A DNA stretch of 64,000 nt. It comes from Thermoanaerobacterium xylanolyticum LX-11 (GTDB lineage Bacteria; Bacillota; Thermoanaerobacteria; Thermoanaerobacterales; Thermoanaerobacteraceae). Position 1 is the first letter of the stretch. The number at the start of each line of letters is the position of its first letter. The stretch is from positions 1,065,001 through 1,129,000 of the forward strand of contig NC_015555.1 in assembly GCF_000189775.2 (NCBI RefSeq). Reading direction: 5' to 3'. Both the position numbers and the translations under genes were made by a program. Shown here piece by piece: positions 2,131 through 10,290 of the stretch. Below the pieces are notes generated by a model that saw nothing but the letters and a program-made list of their open reading frames with translations, was not told where the DNA came from and searched no databases.

Positions 2131-2278
2131 CAATTATTAGTTGGCAGGCTAAACTAAATCTAAAATATAAATTTGATAAAGGCTTGAATATAGGCATAAG
2201 ATTTTTCTTGATTATTAATATGTGACTATTGTAAAATAAATATATAAAGCTTTATTTAATAATTTTGGGGGAAATTTT

Positions 2279-2473
2279 ATGCCTTCTTATGAATATTCTT
2301 TTTCTGAAATGACAGTCAAATCAAAAAGTTTAACCAATAAAAAGGTATTATTGTATCTAAATGATATATTAAAAAATGAAATATACAACAAGTTATCTGA
2401 AATAGTATTAGATACTTTCCCTTTAGAAGGAGAAATTTTAGAATTCATTATTAAACTAAAACTTCGCACATAA
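2279..2473 (+). pseudogene. 5' fragment of a tandem-receiver response regulator, cut by an IS element
   Basis: The frame opens at ATG 2279 behind GGGGGAA and runs 59 codons before entering the insertion element at 2456. It then reads six foreign codons and stops at 2473. Removing the element and one copy of the 8-bp duplication joins this frame exactly to the open frame at 4052. The rebuilt protein has 266 residues: an N-terminal receiver-like domain with KKVLLYLND as first strand and DLIILEN at the phosphoacceptor position (Glu68 where Asp is expected), then a complete second receiver. The gene is therefore a broken response regulator rather than a short orphan protein. Confidence 0.85.
2448..2455. 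repeat. Left target-site duplication TTATTAAA of the IS4-family element
   Basis: TTATTAAA at 2448-2455 is repeated exactly at 4044-4051, immediately outside the element's inverted repeats. Eight bases is within the range known for IS4-family subgroups. Confidence 0.85.
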
Positions 2474-2537
2474 ATAATTACTCTGTTCCTTGAAAACTTA
2501 ATGCTTTGCCAGAAAAAAGTAATAGTAATTTACACAA

Positions 2538-3911
2538 TTATGCACACTTCGGAAGTCTTTCCTTAAGTTCTTTGGGAATCGCAGCCATAAAAGCATCAAG
2601 TAATTGGTCCAGCTGTTCTGAAGATAACGATAGTTTATCTGTTATTGTATCTATGAATACTTGCATAAGTAGATGAAAAGCCTGAATCAGCGTAATATCG
2701 GACATTTCATCCTGTATGTAGTAAAATATCTCTCCCATTGTTCGTAAATCTGATGATCGACGGTTCTCTAGTGCAAGCATCATGTATCTGGTAAATACGA
2801 TTGCTGTATGTGCTGTCATCGCATCGTAAGATAATGAATTGCATTCCTTGCTGAGCTTCAAGTATGATTTACACACTTTGAAAAAGACTTCTATATCCCA
2901 GCGCTTCCCGTATATACGAATGATTTCGTCCTCGTTAAGGTTCATATCCGTGGTAATAAGTGCCAGATAGTCTTTTCGATTATTCCTGTTTCTGACAAAT
3001 ACAATTCGAGCAGGAATAGATTTTCCGTCTTTTTCAATGGAAACTTCCACGGATAACAGGTATCTAGACCTGCCTCTTCTTTTTCTGTTCTGCTTGTATA
3101 TTTCTGTTAACGGCTGCATTATTCCATTATATAGGTAATGCATCTTTGATGTTTTCTTTGCCATTGCAATAACATCATAGCCTATTTCTTTAATAGCAAT
3201 CAAAGAAGAGGGAGAACAGAACCAAGTGTCAAACAATACATAAGATGCTGGAATCATTGCTTTTTTAGCGGTCTTTATTAATTCCAGAGCTACGGCTGTT
3301 GCTTTAGTTTGGGATAGATTCCTTCTTAAATACCCGGCGGAACGCTTGTCCACAGGTATAGCTTCATTGATACGATTCTTTTGATTCTCAGTAGATAAAA
3401 GACATCCATTGACTGGGATAAAAGTATTTCCATCTGACCATCCGAGTGTAAGTAGGCGAAAGCCATATTTGTATGTTTTCTTAGCATGGTCATATACTTT
3501 TGCTAGTAGTTCTACTTTTTTAGAGCTAGAGCGTTCGAATAAAGAGTCATCAACAATAAGAACATTTACGCGTTTGTCACTTGTTAACCCAGTAATTGTC
3601 TCATTTATAATCTGTGCACTAAGCCAAGTGGTAAACCGAATCCAATTAATATGAATAGAGTTTAAGAATCTGTAAACCGTGTCTTTCTTAAAACCAACCT
3701 GATTTGTACCCATTAGCATATTCATATACATAGATCTATTGGTAAAGATCATACAGAATAAGTACTCGAAAATAGAAATAACGGGAATACCCTTGCTTTT
3801 GTAAGCATTCGATAACCTTAAAGCAGCCGAAATTCTATATTTTTTGAAGAAACTTTTAATCGAAGTAGAAACCTTATTATCAATTTGGTAATTTTGTGTT
3901 ATACTATTCAT
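2538..3911 (-). CDS. IS4-family DDE transposase
   Basis: The protein has 457 residues when started at the ATG at 3911, which has TTGGAGG eight bases upstream. The longer frame from TTG at 3950 lacks such a site. DDE catalytic features are readable: IVDDSLFERS (first Asp), VLFDTWF (second Asp) and YGKRWDIEVFFKVCK, which fits the IS4 signature Y-x2-R-x3-E-x6-K and holds the catalytic Glu. It would cut and rejoin the element's ends. The frame has no stops or shifts, so the enzyme is probably functional. A foldback structure covers its start site. Confidence 0.93.
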   Translation of the reverse strand: MNSITQNYQIDNKVSTSIKSFFKKYRISAALRLSNAYKSKGIPVISIFEYLFCMIFTNRSMYMNMLMGTNQVGFKKDTVYRFLNSIHINWIRFTTWLSAQIINETITGLTSDKRVNVLIVDDSLFERSSSKKVELLAKVYDHAKKTYKYGFRLLTLGWSDGNTFIPVNGCLLSTENQKNRINEAIPVDKRSAGYLRRNLSQTKATAVALELIKTAKKAMIPASYVLFDTWFCSPSSLIAIKEIGYDVIAMAKKTSKMHYLYNGIMQPLTEIYKQNRKRRGRSRYLLSVEVSIEKDGKSIPARIVFVRNRNNRKDYLALITTDMNLNEDEIIRIYGKRWDIEVFFKVCKSYLKLSKECNSLSYDAMTAHTAIVFTRYMMLALENRRSSDLRTMGEIFYYIQDEMSDITLIQAFHLLMQVFIDTITDKLSLSSEQLDQLLDAFMAAIPKELKERLPKCA

Positions 3912-3979
3912 AGCATGAGCCTCCAATTGGTTTATTTTTTGATAATTCAATTATACCAAAAATGGAGGTCTCATGCTAT
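3910..3979 (-). promoter_or_regulatory. Foldback hairpin that would hide the transposase ribosome site
   Basis: Bases 3910-3925 pair with 3963-3979 in a 16-bp stem with one bulged base (3969) and a loop of about 37 nt. The stem covers the GGAGG at 3920-3924 and the A and T of the start codon. Transcripts entering from flanking DNA would contain both arms and be poorly translated, a strategy known from IS10, IS50 and related elements. Two promoter candidates exist: TTGATA-N17-TATAAA just upstream, whose RNA would include most of the stem, and a TATAAT in the loop, whose RNA would escape it. Which is used is not decided by sequence. Confidence 0.7.
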
Positions 3980-4043
3980 TTTATAGCCAAATAATATTGA
4001 ATTATCAAGGTACAGAGCTACTTTTATAAGTGCGAAGTTTGAG

Positions 4044-4051
4044 TTATTAAA
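4044..4051. repeat. Right target-site duplication TTATTAAA of the IS4-family element
   Basis: Exact second copy of the 8-bp target sequence. After it the interrupted receiver gene resumes in frame at 4052. Confidence 0.85.
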
Positions 4052-4675
4052 GATAATCCCGATTTAATTATTTTGGAAAATTCATTAAACATCAATGCAT
4101 TAAATTTATTAAGGCTTTTATCTGAAAATGGAATAACAAGTAAAATTCCTATTTTTATAATTGATGATAAAAGTAGTTTGAAAATAGAATATTTAAAATT
4201 GGGTGCGTTTGATTGTATAGAAAAGCCATTTAATGTGGATGAGTTAGTATTGAAAATAAAAAATATGATAAACATAGCCGACAATTGCAGCGATAAAAAG
4301 CTTCAAGGTGAAAAAAAGAATAATATTTTATTTGTAGATGATGAAAAGATAATTTTGTCAATATTGACGTCGCGGTATAAGAGCAAAGGATATAATGTTT
4401 ATTCAACTGATGATGGCGTTAAAGCGCTTGAAATCATAAATAATAACAAAATTGATTTAGTTGTTACTGACTATTATATGAAAACTATGAATGGAGATGA
4501 ATTGACAAAATCTATAAAGAAAAGTCACAAAGAAATAAAAATAATACTGTTGACATCTCAAGATAGTGAAGATTTTGTGAAAAAAGCTTTCGAAATTGGA
4601 GCTGATGACTATGTATCAAAACCTTTTTCACCTATGGAGCTAGACAGCAGAATAAAAAAATTATTGTCAGAATAG
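4052..4675 (+). pseudogene. 3' fragment of the tandem-receiver response regulator
   Basis: From 4052 the frame reads DNPDLIILENSLN and continues as the second half of a degenerate receiver (IPIFIIDDKSS, AFDCIEKPFNVDEL with the conserved K-P). A linker follows, then a full receiver: ILFVDDEK acidic pocket, VVTDYYMKTMNGDE with Asp199 of the rebuilt protein, LLTSQD and DDYVSKPFSPMEL. There is no DNA-binding or enzymatic output domain, so the intact protein probably acted through protein contacts. The fragment could only be translated from an internal TTG at 4073, without a visible ribosome site. The downstream HEAT and glycosyltransferase genes are closely spaced and may suffer polar effects. 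Confidence 0.83.
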
Positions 4676-4685
4676 TGGTGATTAA

Positions 4686-5840
4686 ATGGAATCAATAGCC
4701 ATAATTTCAATAGCTGTATTTTCGGGTATTATACTTGCTTTATATGCGTATTTAATATTTGAAAAGATATATGTATTGATAAATAATATGCTTAAGCAAA
4801 GGTATATGAATGAGATCTCTAAATTTCTTGATGAATTAGTATATCTTCTTGATGAGAAGTATGTTGGTGAAACTGATATAGAGAAATTAAGAGTTCTAAT
4901 GAGAAATAAAATCAAGAGAAACTTAGTAGAAGAGAGAATGGCATACTATTTTGAAAATTTTAAGGGTATTGTTGCTGAAAGATTGACAGCATTATGCGAA
5001 AAGATTGGGCTTATAGATTATGAGATAAGCAATCTAAATAAAAGAAATATATTCAAAGTTTCTTTGGTATGTAGATATTTAGGTGATTATAGGAGTAAAA
5101 AGGCTGTGAAGCCATTATTAAATTTAGTTACCACACATTCTACTGATCTATTATATAATGTTCTTTTGGCACTTGCTAAAATAGGCGATGAAAAATCTTT
5201 TGTAGAAGCGTTTAAAAGTCTTTCAAATACAATTTTATTAAGTGAGAGAAGTATTATAGAAATTGTTGATAATTTTGAGGGCGATAAACTATATGTCTAT
5301 AGATCTTTAATGTATCTTGATGATGATTTCATTGCTTCTATTTTTATAAAATCAGCTGGAAATTACAAGGATACTTCTTTAGCAGACGATATAGCTAAAT
5401 TTCTAAAAAGCAAAAACAAAGAAAAGAGAATAGCGGCTCTTAAGGCTTTGGGTAGTATGGGTGATAATAGGTTTACTTATAAAATCATAGAGCTTTTAAA
5501 AGATGAAGAGTGGGAAGTAAGAGCAGTCGCAGCTAAAGTATTGGGTCAAATACAGGATGAGAGGTCACTTGCACCTCTTGTAGAAGCATTGTCTGATAAA
5601 CAATGGTACGTAAGGTATAATGCTGCACATTCATTGATAAATATAAATGGCGGTTTAGAGGCCATCAAAACGGTATTTCAAAAAGATGATAATTTTGCAA
5701 AGGATATAGTCGTTTCTGTTTTGGAAACAGATTATGGATACGATAAGCTTCTGCAATATGAATCGGTATTTTACACAGGTCCTAAACTTTCTGACTTAAT
5801 TACAGAATATGTTAAAAGCAAGATGGAGGTGATGGCTTGA
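4686..5840 (+). CDS. Membrane-anchored HEAT-repeat protein
   Basis: The 384-residue protein has one N-terminal transmembrane segment (about residues 5-33). Helical repeats occupy the C-terminal part, most clearly residues ~240-330, where KNKEKRIAALKALGSMGDNR, DEEWEVRAVAAKVLGQIQDER and DKQWYVRYNAAHSLININGG repeat at ~31-residue spacing, typical of HEAT/PBS-lyase-like repeats. Such repeats bind proteins. It starts 10 bases after the receiver gene with a GTGG site and overlaps the next gene by four bases, so the three genes look like one operon. I infer a scaffold linking the receiver protein to the glycosyltransferase at the membrane. No enzymatic motif is visible. Confidence 0.78.
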   Translation: MESIAIISIAVFSGIILALYAYLIFEKIYVLINNMLKQRYMNEISKFLDELVYLLDEKYVGETDIEKLRVLMRNKIKRNLVEERMAYYFENFKGIVAERLTALCEKIGLIDYEISNLNKRNIFKVSLVCRYLGDYRSKKAVKPLLNLVTTHSTDLLYNVLLALAKIGDEKSFVEAFKSLSNTILLSERSIIEIVDNFEGDKLYVYRSLMYLDDDFIASIFIKSAGNYKDTSLADDIAKFLKSKNKEKRIAALKALGSMGDNRFTYKIIELLKDEEWEVRAVAAKVLGQIQDERSLAPLVEALSDKQWYVRYNAAHSLININGGLEAIKTVFQKDDNFAKDIVVSVLETDYGYDKLLQYESVFYTGPKLSDLITEYVKSKMEVMA

Positions 5841-7255
5841 GCATATCTTTATTAAAATCGATTATTTTAGGATTTAATAAAACACTTATTTATTATGTTT
5901 TCGCAATTAACTTTATATATTTTTTTCAGCTAATTTTAGCTGCAATTAATTTAAATAGATACATAAAGAAAATAAGATATTCTGATTATAGGAGATTTAT
6001 ATCTTCTTCAAATATGATACCAATATCTATATTAGTTCCAGCTTATAATGAGGAAGAAACAATAGTAGAGAATATAAAATCGCTTTTATCGTTGCACTAC
6101 CCAATTTTTGAGGTAGTAGTAATAAATGATGGTTCGAAAGATAATACATTAAAAAAGGTGATTGAAGCATTTGAATTAAAAGAGGTAGATCAACCAATTA
6201 GATATCGTATCAAAACCAATAAAATACTAAAAGTCTATAGAAACATTGATATACCTAATCTCATATTAGTAGATAAAGAGAATGGTGGAAAAGCTGATGC
6301 ACTAAATGCTGGTATAAATGTATCTAATTATCCAGTAATAACATCTATCGATGCAGACTCAATTTTAGAAAGTGATTCACTTGTAAGAATAATAATGCCT
6401 TTTGTTGAGGATAAAAGAACAATTGCTGTTGGTGGCATAGTCAGAATAGCAAATGGTAGCACTATAATAAGAGATAAAATCATAAACATCGATTTACCAA
6501 GAAATAGAATAGCAAATTTTCAGATAGTAGAGTATTTGAGGGCTTTTTTATTGGGGCGAGCTGGTTGGGATTTGATAAATTGCCTTCTTATCGTATCTGG
6601 TGCGTTTGGGGCTTGTAGGAAAGATGCTGTTATAGAAGTTGGTGGCTATGATAAAGATACAATCGGTGAGGACATGGAGCTTATAGTAAAACTTCACGAA
6701 CATTTTGTAGAGAAAAGACAAGAATACAGAATAAAGTTTATTCCAGATCCTGTATGTTGGACACAGGCACCAGAAAGTATAAAAGATCTAAGGAGTCAGA
6801 GAAGAAGATGGCAGATAGGTCTTATAGATAGCCTTTTTAAACACAAAAAAATGCTATTAAATCCAAAGTATAAGCAAATTGGTTTAATAGCAGTTCCTTA
6901 CTTTTGGTTATTTGAAATGATAGGACCTGTTGTTGAAATACTAGGGTATATTTTTATTCCGATTACGTACATATTAGGTATTCTAAACATAAAATATTTT
7001 ATTTTGTATTTTGCAGCGGCTATTCTTTATGGAGTGCTTTTATCATTAGGTGCTATATTGTTAGAAGAATATACATTTAATAATTATCCTAAGTTGGTTC
7101 AACTTTTAAAACTAAGTATATACGGTGTATTAGAAAATTTTGGATACAGGCAGATGACAACTCTATTTAGGATAGAAGGTATTGTTAAATTTAAAAAATT
7201 AAAAAGCAGTTGGGGAAAAATCAAGAGACATAGTTTTGAAACTAAGAAAGCTTAA
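5837..7255 (+). CDS. Processive family 2 glycosyltransferase, membrane-bound
   Basis: The start is TTG at 5837, with GGAGGTGATGGC just before it and a TTGA overlap with the HEAT gene. One N-terminal membrane segment precedes a GT2 domain: ISILVPAYNEEE, VVINDGS, the DxD in ITSIDADS, the catalytic base in DTIGEDMEL, and QRRRW (Q-x-x-R-W) for processive synthesis. Three or more membrane segments close the 472-residue protein. This is the layout of PgaC, hyaluronan and cellulose-type synthases, which polymerise sugars from nucleotide donors and extrude them. The sugar cannot be assigned. Neighbouring receiver and GGDEF genes suggest signal-controlled exopolysaccharide; no PilZ domain is evident in the protein. 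Confidence 0.87.
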   Translation: MSISLLKSIILGFNKTLIYYVFAINFIYFFQLILAAINLNRYIKKIRYSDYRRFISSSNMIPISILVPAYNEEETIVENIKSLLSLHYPIFEVVVINDGSKDNTLKKVIEAFELKEVDQPIRYRIKTNKILKVYRNIDIPNLILVDKENGGKADALNAGINVSNYPVITSIDADSILESDSLVRIIMPFVEDKRTIAVGGIVRIANGSTIIRDKIINIDLPRNRIANFQIVEYLRAFLLGRAGWDLINCLLIVSGAFGACRKDAVIEVGGYDKDTIGEDMELIVKLHEHFVEKRQEYRIKFIPDPVCWTQAPESIKDLRSQRRRWQIGLIDSLFKHKKMLLNPKYKQIGLIAVPYFWLFEMIGPVVEILGYIFIPITYILGILNIKYFILYFAAAILYGVLLSLGAILLEEYTFNNYPKLVQLLKLSIYGVLENFGYRQMTTLFRIEGIVKFKKLKSSWGKIKRHSFETKKA

Positions 7256-8145
7256 GCCATAACTTGATTTCTTTTTTTCTTTGCTTCGTATAATTTTTGG
7301 TCGGTTTTTTCAATAACATCTAAATAATTTTCATAATTGCCTTCAAATGTATATACCCCAAAGCTGGAAGTGATTTTAATTTCCTTGTCTTTATATATTA
7401 TAGTGCTGCTTTCAATGCTTTTTCTTATTCTTTCAGCTATTTCGTAAGCCTCATTTTTATCTGTATTTTTCAAACAAATTAAAAATTCTTCTCCACCATA
7501 CCTAGCTGCCCAATCATCTTTTCTAATATTGCTTTGAATTATGGAGGCAAAAAATTTGAGCGTTTCGTCACCTGCAATATGACCATATGTATCATTTACT
7601 TTTTTAAAGAAGTCTATATCTGCCATTATTATGGAGACTGGCATGGTATTTAAAGAAGCTCTAAGGATATCAACAGGTAATCTTTCATCTACGAATCGTC
7701 TATTATATAGTCCAGTGAGACCATCTTTTACCACTAATTCATTTAATTCATTTACTTTATCATATATATTTTGACTTGTCAGATTTTTAATATCTTCAAT
7801 CAAACCTGCATCTGTAGAATCTTTTAAAAGTTCGACTACAATTTTACCTGAGTCTGTGTAAAATGGTGTCGATGTTACTAAATATAATTTTTCTCCAGTA
7901 TATTCAACTTTTACAAAAGTTTTATCTTCAATAATTGTTCTTATTGATATACAATTACTACATATTTTACCTTGATTCCAAAAATCATAGCAATAATCTT
8001 TTTCATCAATGATTTCCTTGCTATTTAGAAAAGAGTAGTAAACTTTCTTTTTTAAAGGATCTACTATTCTTATACCATCGAATATATTTACTAAAAATGA
8101 TACATTTTTTATAATATCATCTATTGATAGATAAGTACTATTCAT
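7252..8145 (-). CDS. Diguanylate cyclase with N-terminal Cys-containing PAS-like domain
   Basis: The protein has 297 residues. Residues ~10-115 resemble a PAS sensor and contain three cysteines, C52, C62 and C65, in CYDFWNQGKICSNC, a plausible redox or metal site. A short helical linker leads into a GGDEF domain with DGLTGLYNRR, ADIDFFKKVND, GGEEF at 217-221 and a complete inhibitory I-site RKDD at 208-211. It should make cyclic di-GMP and be feedback-inhibited. The gene is convergent with the glycosyltransferase and shares four bases at the 3' ends. Cyclic di-GMP control of the neighbouring synthase is an inference from position. Confidence 0.88.
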   Translation of the reverse strand: MNSTYLSIDDIIKNVSFLVNIFDGIRIVDPLKKKVYYSFLNSKEIIDEKDYCYDFWNQGKICSNCISIRTIIEDKTFVKVEYTGEKLYLVTSTPFYTDSGKIVVELLKDSTDAGLIEDIKNLTSQNIYDKVNELNELVVKDGLTGLYNRRFVDERLPVDILRASLNTMPVSIIMADIDFFKKVNDTYGHIAGDETLKFFASIIQSNIRKDDWAARYGGEEFLICLKNTDKNEAYEIAERIRKSIESSTIIYKDKEIKITSSFGVYTFEGNYENYLDVIEKTDQKLYEAKKKRNQVMA

Positions 8146-8241
8146 AAAAAATTCCTGCCTCCCATAATTATTAATTCTATTTTACCATAATTTATATATA
8201 TATAAAAGAACAATGTATAGATTATCAAGAAAATTTGACGA

Positions 8242-8249
8242 TAGAGTGC
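8242..8249. repeat. Left direct repeat ATAGAGTG flanking the ISLre2-type element
   Basis: ATAGAGTG recurs at 10094-10101. ISLre2 elements typically duplicate about 9 bp, so one diverged base may belong to the duplication as well. Confidence 0.6.
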
Positions 8250-8304
8250 TTAGTGTAAAATTTTTTTAGGTGAAAAAGCAGGAAAATAGCGATGAAATGT
8301 AGAA

Positions 8305-8367
8305 ATAAGACCTCACCATCCTCCCAAGAGGATGAGTTAGAAAATAAATAGGAAGGTGAGGTCTTAT
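8305..8367 (+). promoter_or_regulatory. Foldback hairpin over the ISLre2 transposase start
   Basis: ATAAGACCTCACC at 8305-8317 pairs perfectly with GGTGAGGTCTTAT at 8355-8367, covering the GGTGAGG ribosome site and the first bases of the start codon. A second small hairpin (8318-8323 with 8328-8333) lies inside the loop. A read-through transcript from the neighbouring region would fold and block translation. The arm is also part of the element's subterminal inverted repeat. Confidence 0.65.
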
Positions 8368-9775
8368 GAAAATAATTCAACATACACTTCAAAAATTCCT
8401 GCTTGTTGTAGAAAAAATTATTGGATTACTTGATGGAAAATATACCTATTTGGAATTTGAAGAAGAACTTAAAAAAATTCTAAATGAATTAGGAAAAGAG
8501 ATTTGTGCAGATGTACTTCATGAACTTGATCAAAGCATATATAAAGATAAATACAAAAGGAAAAACTGGGTGGTAGTCCAAAAAGATTGTGAAAGGACAA
8601 TAACAACTGCATTTGGAGATATCACATACAAAAGACGGTACTATAAAAACAAAGAAACAGGAGAGAAGGCATATCTCGTAGATAAAGCTGCTGGCATCCA
8701 AAAATATGAAAGAATAGATGCTGAGCTTAAAGCTGATATAACGGATCTTTCTACAATACTCTCATATCAAAAAACCACTCAGGAACTTAAAAGAAATGGA
8801 GCTAACTGCAATGTAAGCCGGCAAACAGTAATGAACACATTAAGAAAAATAGACAACCTTCAAACATATGAAAAGCCAAAGACTAAAAAAGAAATAGAAA
8901 CTTTATACATAGAAGCTGATGAAGATCATATACATCTTCAAAACGGCAAACCAGACATTGTAAAATTAATATACGTACATGAAGGAAAACAAACAATAAC
9001 AAAAGGCAGAAATGAACTAAAAAATGCCGTATACTTTTCCGGTGTATACGAAGGAGATAAAGTAGAAGAGTTATGGAAAGAAGTATGGGAGTACATTGCA
9101 AGCACATATAACGAAGACAAAATAAAACGCATATACGTATCTGGAGATGGAGCGGAATGGATAAAATTCGGAGTAAAATATCTGCCTAACGCCGTATACG
9201 TATTAGACCTATTTCATCTACAAAAATACATAACAGCTGCAATAAAAGAAGATAAAAAAACAAAGAGAGAATTATGGAAAGCCATATTTAAAGCAGATAA
9301 ACAAAAAGTCAATGAGCTTTTAACACAAAAATACAAAGAACTAGAATTAAACGGAACAGAAAATCCCGTAACGAAGTGCCAAACATATATAAATAACAAT
9401 TGGGATGGAATAAATTCATACAGCCTTTACAAAAAAGAAATAACAGGATGCAGTGCAGAAAGTCATGTAAGTCATGTACTTTCAGAGAGACTATCAAGCA
9501 GACCAATTTCATGGAGCAAGGTTGGAGCTCACAAAATGGCAAAATTAAGAGCAATAAAAGCAAGCGGCATATCGCTGAAAGGTGTCGTATTAAAACAGCA
9601 ATATGAAAGCTTAAAGCCAATAGAAATACCAAAGCAAACAGTGTATAAAGCGAAACAACAACTAAAGAAAATAAAATCAACTTATGAAAACATAATAAGC
9701 TTGCCAATATTGCAAAATAAAAAAACATTAACAAGTCAGGCTATAAAATCATTACTATTGAGAAATGCCATTTAA
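8366..9775 (+). CDS. ISLre2-family (UPF0236) transposase
   Basis: This 469-residue protein starts at ATG 8366 behind GGAAGGTGAGG. The N-terminal region (FGDITYKRRYYKNKETGEKAYL) and the middle ETLYIEADEDHIHLQ and YVSGDGAEWIKFGVKYLP, followed by VYVLDLFHLQKYI, are typical of the UPF0236 family, which are transposases of ISLre2 elements. Acidic residues in EADEDH, SGDGAEW and the later SAESHVSHVLSERLSSRP block are the likely catalytic set. The frame is uninterrupted. It is unrelated to the other transposase in the window. Confidence 0.88.
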   Translation: MKIIQHTLQKFLLVVEKIIGLLDGKYTYLEFEEELKKILNELGKEICADVLHELDQSIYKDKYKRKNWVVVQKDCERTITTAFGDITYKRRYYKNKETGEKAYLVDKAAGIQKYERIDAELKADITDLSTILSYQKTTQELKRNGANCNVSRQTVMNTLRKIDNLQTYEKPKTKKEIETLYIEADEDHIHLQNGKPDIVKLIYVHEGKQTITKGRNELKNAVYFSGVYEGDKVEELWKEVWEYIASTYNEDKIKRIYVSGDGAEWIKFGVKYLPNAVYVLDLFHLQKYITAAIKEDKKTKRELWKAIFKADKQKVNELLTQKYKELELNGTENPVTKCQTYINNNWDGINSYSLYKKEITGCSAESHVSHVLSERLSSRPISWSKVGAHKMAKLRAIKASGISLKGVVLKQQYESLKPIEIPKQTVYKAKQQLKKIKSTYENIISLPILQNKKTLTSQAIKSLLLRNAI

Positions 9776-10082
9776 AAGTATGCATATATATTGAAGATTG
9801 TAGTTTTAGTTATTATTATGGGGAGCTTATTTGGGTTACCTATCACATGTAAAATTCATGAATAAATAGCATTGATATACATGATGGCTTCTTTGAAGAG
9901 CGTGAGAATCTGAGAATGAGTGAGATATTAAAAGAAAATCAAAGATTATAGAGTGAGTGGCGATTTTATGCTATCAAGAAGTTAAGAGACTTCAACACTA
10001 AAAACTTTTCTTAAAATCCAGCTATCAATACTCATCCTTAGAGTGATAGTGAGGTCTTTTTTTCAAAAAAACCTAAAAATAC

Positions 10083-10110
10083 TTGACACGATCATAGAGT
10101 GAAATATCCT
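10083..10110 (+). promoter_or_regulatory. Possible hybrid promoter: -35 from the IS end, -10 outside
   Basis: TTGACA at 10083-10088 lies in the terminal repeat of the ISLre2 element and points outward. TATCCT at 10105-10110 lies 16 bases further on, outside the element. A transcript from here would carry the complete TPP riboswitch. A weaker alternative, TTGTGT-N17-TAATAT at 10127-10155, would start too close to the riboswitch. The -10 is only a fair match. Confidence 0.35.
10094..10101. repeat. Right direct repeat ATAGAGTG flanking the ISLre2-type element
   Basis: Second copy of the putative target-site duplication, immediately outside the right end of the element. Confidence 0.6.
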
Positions 10111-10155
10111 GTACAAGTCAAACAATTTGTGTTAAAATTAAATAAAAGTTAATAT

Positions 10156-10254
10156 TTAGTCTGGGGAGCTGGGGTGATAGCCCGGCTGAGAGTTAGCAGC
10201 TATTTCTGCTATGACCCATAACCTGATCTGGATAATGCCGGCGTAGGGAGTACA
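10156..10254 (+). promoter_or_regulatory. TPP riboswitch (THI element)
   Basis: The conserved THI-box parts are present in order: GGGGAGC near 10163, GGCTGAGAG near 10184 in the pyrimidine-binding arm, a variable hairpin, GACCCATAACCTGATCTGG near 10213-10231 and AATGCCGGCGTAGGGAG near 10233-10250. It binds thiamine pyrophosphate. It precedes a terminator and the thiD operon, so high TPP should stop transcription. Confidence 0.95.
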
Positions 10255-10263
10255 TTGGGATTT

Positions 10264-10290
10264 AAGTGTGCTTATCCAGCACACTTTTTT
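10264..10290 (+). terminator. Riboswitch expression-platform terminator
   Basis: AAGTGTGC at 10264-10271 pairs with GCACACTT at 10279-10286 around a 7-nt loop and runs into a T tract to 10290. Its place between the TPP aptamer and thiD makes it the ligand-controlled terminator. Confidence 0.88.

Follow-up and report, generated by a model that had tools for sequence, protein, structure and literature searches.

The question addressed here is how a polysaccharide synthase of glycosyltransferase family 2 (GT2) may be controlled when no PilZ domain is visible in it. Control of the best-known bacterial exopolysaccharide synthases of the GT2 kind is explained by cyclic di-GMP (c-di-GMP) acting via PilZ or dedicated receptors. 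The question is raised by a locus of Thermoanaerobacterium xylanolyticum LX-11, lying within a stretch of 64,000 nucleotides (contig NC_015555.1, positions 1,065,001 to 1,129,000), the whole of which is referred to as the window, where a receiver gene, a gene for a HEAT-repeat protein and a GT2 gene follow each other and a diguanylate cyclase gene converges on them. The original prediction, made from this sequence, saw in the HEAT protein a scaffold between receiver and synthase, and hence a control route other than PilZ. Our results showed that a HEAT gene between a receiver and GT2, without PilZ, is a conserved unit, while an intact receiver, an altered phosphorylation site as a rule and a membership of the cyclase were not supported. 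The reading we prefer, which we hold to be about as probable as its opposite, is a two-subunit HEAT-GT2 polysaccharide synthase that would be gated through the docking of a receiver on the HEAT subunit and not through PilZ.

Conservation of the HEAT-GT2 pair

The HEAT-GT2 combination is a widely conserved partner arrangement across bacterial phyla and haloarchaea. Conservation of the pair in other genomes had been fixed beforehand as a point on which the original prediction would stand or fall, and it was followed in a main count over the best 80 loci of a contig scan with one genome per species (GT2 identity 42-77%; more loci exist). These loci were counted in six frames; the set obtained with an open reading frame (ORF) caller had lost some GC-rich loci. 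A HEAT gene precedes GT2 in 79 of the 80 loci; in the remaining one (L061) the contig begins inside the GT2 gene and leaves nothing upstream to be read. A gene-neighbourhood search for such pairs together with receivers had also been proposed, and a receiver on the same strand was found within 5 kb in 68 of the 80 loci, upstream in 51.

By Pfam, HEAT_2 was found in 58 of the 59 HEAT partners scanned, and for control loci with weaker GT2 matches the HEAT partner was present in 0 of 21. Among 398 genomes of the phylum, in which adjacency was judged by eye from coordinates, 31 of 32 strong GT2 matches stand beside a HEAT gene or are fused with it, the exception being genome G393, and 25 of the 27 listed full-span HEAT matches precede GT2, one (G415) cut by the locus end; of these 27, G241 was left out and G193 adjoins a gene resembling, by eye, a mechanosensitive channel. 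A plasmid collection gave 13 matches, of which two near-identical ones from M. ciceri were left out, and all 11 loci opened (one of which, L212, duplicates the record of L132) carry HEAT-GT2, including three from haloarchaea and those from Bacteroides, Emticicia and Deinococcus, with an upstream receiver on the same strand in 7 of the 11. In all three haloarchaeal loci the receiver, HEAT and GT2 genes are consecutive or separated by one small gene. Two genomes carry HEAT and GT2 naturally fused as a single protein (L158, L160). The distances among HEAT proteins and among GT2 proteins showed a correlation of 0.86 over 57 pairs in comparison to a permutation maximum of 0.17 (n=2000), calculated with no species-tree control. 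A scan of viral contigs returned 25 pattern matches, none of them a relative.

The window HEAT and GT2 proteins are 64% and 80% identical, respectively, to those of L041, the locus of the nearest genome that carries it (G015). Six loci from genomes of the same class (L042-L045, L052, L053) have the order receiver, HEAT, GT2 as in the window, with 43-47% identity to the window for GT2 and 19-21% for HEAT.

The probable synthase and its HEAT partner

The window GT2 protein carries the motifs D, DAD, GED and QRRRW, the last of which fits the QxxRW signature claimed for it at the outset, and QxxRW, GED and D[AG]D were found in 59, 58 and 57, respectively, of 59 GT2 proteins. In its predicted model (predicted local distance difference test, pLDDT, 89.4), long helices at residues 343-450 follow the catalytic domain and the protein ends soon after the last long helix; the alignments for this and the HEAT model each comprised 58 loci and the window. 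The GT2 protein is probably a polysaccharide synthase of the processive type, spinning a long sugar chain.

Comparison with known enzymes placed the GT2 model close to the archaeal mannosyltransferase 6yv7 (Z 31.1, 340 residues, root-mean-square deviation (rmsd) 3.3). Hyaluronan synthases from Chlorella virus and Xenopus are also among its best fold matches (8snc, Z 29.1, 393 residues, rmsd 3.4), at 16% identity, and the titles of these entries name the synthase itself, with ligands or a VNAR, and no HEAT partner. BcsA shares both the fold (4p00, Z 23.3, 386 residues, rmsd 3.4) and QxxRW, but differs in its PilZ domain, which is absent from the window GT2, and the CelA model (TIGR03030) gives 52.3 bits in comparison to a cut-off of 699.1. 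The best NCBIfam match is the poly-beta-1,6-GlcNAc synthase PgaC/IcaA (TIGR03937, E 9.8e-45), at 153.2 bits against a cut-off of 422.3. PgaC/IcaA is a GT2 enzyme that has a few membrane partners, PgaD being the partner of PgaC, whereas the partner in the window is a HEAT solenoid. No HEAT-bound synthase was named among the matches listed (50 per GT2 fold search). Romboutsia RiGT2 was considered as the closest system and rejected, being PilZ-type according to the part of its source that was available.

The window HEAT protein scores 96 bits with HEAT_2 against a Pfam cut-off of 27.7. Its predicted model (pLDDT 96.3) has a helix at residues 2-57, hydrophobic in its first half and followed by a helical solenoid, which agrees with the membrane anchor that had been read from the sequence; the fold matches of this model in the PDB are HEAT-like designed proteins and importins. 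Because basic residues follow the hydrophobic stretch, the solenoid would be cytosolic. The original prediction was also right that no PilZ is visible: Pfam found none in the window GT2, in 59 GT2 proteins or in 59 HEAT partners, and a PilZ domain in either protein was rejected on these scans. The whole genome holds one PilZ protein (1372615-1372923), far from the window.

Under the proposed mechanism, GT2 would polymerise and extrude a glycan, and the HEAT solenoid, anchored at its N-terminus, would bind GT2 in the cytosol and be required for it. A receiver would dock on HEAT, phosphorylation would alter this docking, and the altered docking would open or close the synthase in place of c-di-GMP binding PilZ, with HEAT relaying the state of the receiver to the synthase. 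A wider form of this proposal, which we advance tentatively and regard as somewhat less probable, is a class of exopolysaccharide synthases in bacteria and haloarchaea whose GT2 would need a HEAT subunit that reads phosphorelay receivers directly, export being switched by phosphorylation with no c-di-GMP. In the open-licence literature of PubMed Central (PMC), which mostly does not cover subscription papers, no functional account of the HEAT-GT2 pair was found.

A number of observations weigh against gating through a receiver. No receiver lies within 5 kb in 12 of the 80 loci (4 of these 12 have under 3 kb of sequence ahead of GT2), and none lies upstream in 4 of the 11 plasmid-collection loci. 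The profile by which HEAT was counted had been trained on the genes that occupy this place in the same loci, so that the other checks of the pairing matter. A loose PilZ-like motif is present in 3 of 99 GT2 proteins (L073, L120, L142) and in 1 of 82 HEAT proteins (L153), where 99 is the number of distinct loci after merging identical GT2 proteins; Pfam found no PilZ in those three GT2 proteins, the L153 HEAT protein lying outside the Pfam scan. The HEAT-GT2 contact, the receiver-HEAT contact and the gating of the synthase are all inferred from sequence, the evidence for contact being conservation and the fusions. Finally, GGDEF lies within the receiver protein in 13 loci, with GG[DE]EF intact in 9 and an I-site in 7, and in L148 and L149 GGDEF occupies the place of the receiver; c-di-GMP may for this reason still act at HEAT-GT2 loci.

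Receivers, c-di-GMP and the convergent cyclase

These GGDEF-bearing loci lead to the best surviving alternative, which we consider possible, though on balance unlikely, namely that HEAT is an essential structural or sensing subunit, comparable to PgaD, and that control rests with c-di-GMP, which would be supplied either by the GGDEF within the receiver protein or by neighbours and would bind elsewhere than in a PilZ domain. It is favoured by the 13 loci just described, whose receiver proteins have the order receiver domain, GGDEF, receiver domain (REC-GGDEF-REC), by the cyclase that adjoins GT2 in the window, and by Sinorhizobium BgsA, which, according to the part of the published account available, binds c-di-GMP without PilZ (PMC10374906). 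The clade of the window argues the other way, since its GGDEF reads SGDEF or AGDEF and is without an I-site in L041 and L057, and has been lost in the window, while HEAT and GT2 were kept. The haloarchaeal loci also speak for a route without c-di-GMP, because their receivers keep the phospho-accepting Asp (judged by eye), their three plasmids hold no GGDEF (the search covered the plasmids and not the chromosomes), and GGDEF proteins are rare in archaea.

The convergent cyclase, which the original prediction had counted with the locus, was rejected as a member of the module. It carries GGEEF preceded by an RxxD I-site, and only four other matches were found at E<=1e-45 among 41 genomes, in which it is not a conserved neighbour; the best of them (G027, 55%) lies at 9226-10083 in comparison to 342224 for the GT2 of that genome.

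The receiver proteins themselves differ among relatives. The ortholog of the window receiver in G015 is a 500-aa REC-GGDEF-REC protein whose first phospho site holds Gln, and that of Thermosyntropha (L057) has the same form. Because the closest intact relative is REC-GGDEF-REC, the tandem receiver of the window probably descended from a form with GGDEF, since lost. PleD-type REC-REC-GGDEF is the best NCBIfam match of both L041 (146 bits) and L071 (256 bits), below the cut-off of 474, and differs from them in domain order and from the window form, which is without GGDEF; L071 also has a weak HPt match in front. As had been claimed, the first receiver domain of the window has Glu at the phospho-Asp position, the second having Asp. 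Such degeneracy was nevertheless rejected as a general trait, the phospho-Asp being present in the first receiver of 10 of the 13 REC-GGDEF-REC proteins and in the second receiver of 12.

Some further observations on receivers were made. Glu replaces the phospho-Asp in a receiver downstream of GT2 in 12 loci (L084, L089, L098, L106, L107, L110, L111, L114, L127, L128, L131, L156), 11 of them named Paenibacillus, a recurrent pseudo-receiver, and the same residue recurs in the receiver of L066. In L173 a 367-aa receiver protein (367-1470) stands directly before HEAT and GT2, with a long helical N-terminal region that is DivIVA-like by eye; a polar or septal placing of the synthase is possible there. 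Upstream of REC-GGDEF-REC in G015 (L041, 15269-19263), proteins of STAS, RsbT-like ATPase, CBS and HD type were recognised by eye and GGDEF by profile, the group possibly serving as a partner-switching input.

The locus in T. xylanolyticum, its neighbours and their meaning

The four genes named in the original prediction were found as ORFs with their identities confirmed by Pfam (Table 1), and the close packing described for them is also correct: the HEAT stop and the GT2 start share 4 nt (5837-5840), the gap between receiver and HEAT is 10 nt, and the cyclase has four bases (7252-7255) in common with GT2. The receiver ORF gives two stretches of Pfam Response_reg (E 1.8e-36), the cyclase scores 170 bits for GGDEF, and a strong ribosome site, GGAGG at 5825-5829, precedes the GT2 start. 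Promoter- and terminator-like sites were as numerous as in shuffled sequence.

Table 1. Positions in the window of the genes and the insertion sequence at the HEAT-GT2 locus
Feature	Position	Strand	Remarks
Receiver gene, 5' part	2279..2455	+	ATG 2279, 59 codons; with 4052-4675 one 266-aa open frame
IS4-family insertion sequence, 1588 bp	2456..4043	-	transposase 2538-3950 on minus strand
Receiver gene, 3' part	4052..4675	+	listed as ORF 4073-4675; remainder of pseudo-receiver and complete second receiver
HEAT-repeat protein, 384 aa	4686..5840	+	Pfam HEAT_2, E 1.5e-27
GT2 glycosyltransferase, 472 aa	5837..7255	+	Pfam Glycos_transf_2; TTG start
Convergent diguanylate cyclase, 297 aa	7252..8145	-	GGDEF 170 bits, cut-off 37.4

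The receiver ORF had been taken for a whole protein and is instead the 3' piece of a gene split by an IS4-family element. The transposase of this element scores 600 bits with NCBIfam transpos_IS4_4 against a cut-off of 250, and the element has inverted ends and an 8-bp target duplication, TTATTAAA, at 2448-2455 and 4044-4051; with the element and one repeat removed, a single frame runs from the ATG at 2279 to 4675. Its ends are well defined because the genome carries 10 full-length copies at 99-100% identity, that of the window included, and from this near-identity the element has probably been mobile recently. Because the receiver gene is split, the receiver input in this strain is probably either weakened or locked in a single state, and the regulation of HEAT-GT2 may be broken, the HEAT and GT2 frames being intact despite the split receiver. 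Another case of a mobile element in the module was seen in genome G034 (L046, 4024-6773), where a transposase-like ORF pair apparently interrupts the HEAT-GT2 region and has left fragments of both.

The locus was not found elsewhere in the genus. Searches of the eight other genomes of the genus detected no HEAT gene at E<=0.001, and their GT2 matches did not go beyond 1.8e-22. In G002, whose flanking genes have 91.5-94.6% DNA identity, the place between these flanks is taken by an ABC transporter gene of 582 aa; on this comparison, 2158-10098 of the window is a variable segment, with two transposase genes inside. A second mobile element adjoins the module, a UPF0236 protein at 8366-9775 (PF06782, E 1.6e-84) that also matches, less strongly, an ISL3-type transposase. 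A further explanation, which we judge rather improbable, is that in this strain the locus was gained recently as an accessory region and is now decaying, with frames still open and a product not made or not regulated. The split receiver, the lack of matches in the eight other genomes of the genus and the transporter between the same flanks would fit it, as would the low G+C content of the module (0.289 in comparison to 0.352 for the window) and the lack of a match in G000 to a secreted TIM-barrel-like family found at relatives' loci; against it stand the intact HEAT and GT2 genes with the strong ribosome site before GT2, the identity to L041 kept by both proteins, and the fact that G015 is also without the secreted family. 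Chance adjacency or loose clustering of HEAT with unrelated GT2 genes, for which the commonness of HEAT repeats might speak (the HEAT alignment alone matches 135 of the 398 genomes at E<=1e-15), is already contradicted by the conservation counts (79/80, 11/11), the control loci (0/21) and the two fusions, was rejected on these grounds and is very improbable indeed.

Other genes were seen at relatives' loci. A TPR/YaiO outer-membrane barrel, which is what an exported polymer would need, was found by sequence search in 15 of the 99 loci, all Gram-negative records, as well as by Pfam in L080, and the Mesorhizobium and Emticicia plasmids carry it as an annotated gene. The secreted-looking (by N-termini) TIM-barrel-like family has no Pfam name and occurs on either strand in 32 of the 99 loci; it has two near-invariant Glu at positions that would suit a clan GH-A enzyme, by an eye reading of conserved residues. 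A sequence search of the PDB up to E 0.1 gave nothing for the family, nor did Pfam for its members from L084, L055, L085 and L057; the family has no match in G000 or G015 and lies elsewhere in the genome in G024 and G027. Histidine kinases adjoin L085, L094, L101 and L120, and HPt genes adjoin the Mesorhizobium and Devosia loci. On plasmid 4 of Bacteroides finegoldii (L213), consecutive HEAT and GT2 genes have a DUF4838 protein and a polysaccharide lyase of chondroitinase type in their vicinity. In the window, a TPP riboswitch (10152-10266; RF00059, 58.7 bits, cut-off 54.3) lies ahead of a thiD-like gene and further thiamine-looking genes.

A similar gene order has been published for Clostridium perfringens, in the one relevant paper that the open-licence literature yielded. 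In the part of the paper available, NELoc-2 (CP4_0465-0468) comprises consecutive genes for CotH, a 685-aa protein, a 377-aa HEAT protein and a 466-aa glycosyl transferase (PMC2879425). It is described as a locus associated with disease that would encode a supposed chitin synthase, and its HEAT protein and putative glycosyl transferase are tabulated side by side without functional test. The order resembles that of L113 and of Planococcus L217, a likeness taken from the published gene order, and NELoc-2 differs in that no receiver is among the genes listed there.

Taken together, the pairing of a known kind of enzyme with HEAT is real and widely conserved, and it is plausible that it embodies a new control logic; the HEAT-GT2-receiver arrangement is suggestive of a route, so far little noticed, for turning on slime production. 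If the proposed gating is true, biofilm polymers would be subject to a second control logic, in an arrangement seen from Bacillota to Pseudomonadota, Bacteroidota, Deinococcota and Halobacteria. Genes whose annotation stops at 'HEAT repeat domain-containing protein' or 'glycosyltransferase family 2' would also gain a likely role, one that, judging from the published gene order available, perhaps extends to the disease-associated C. perfringens locus.

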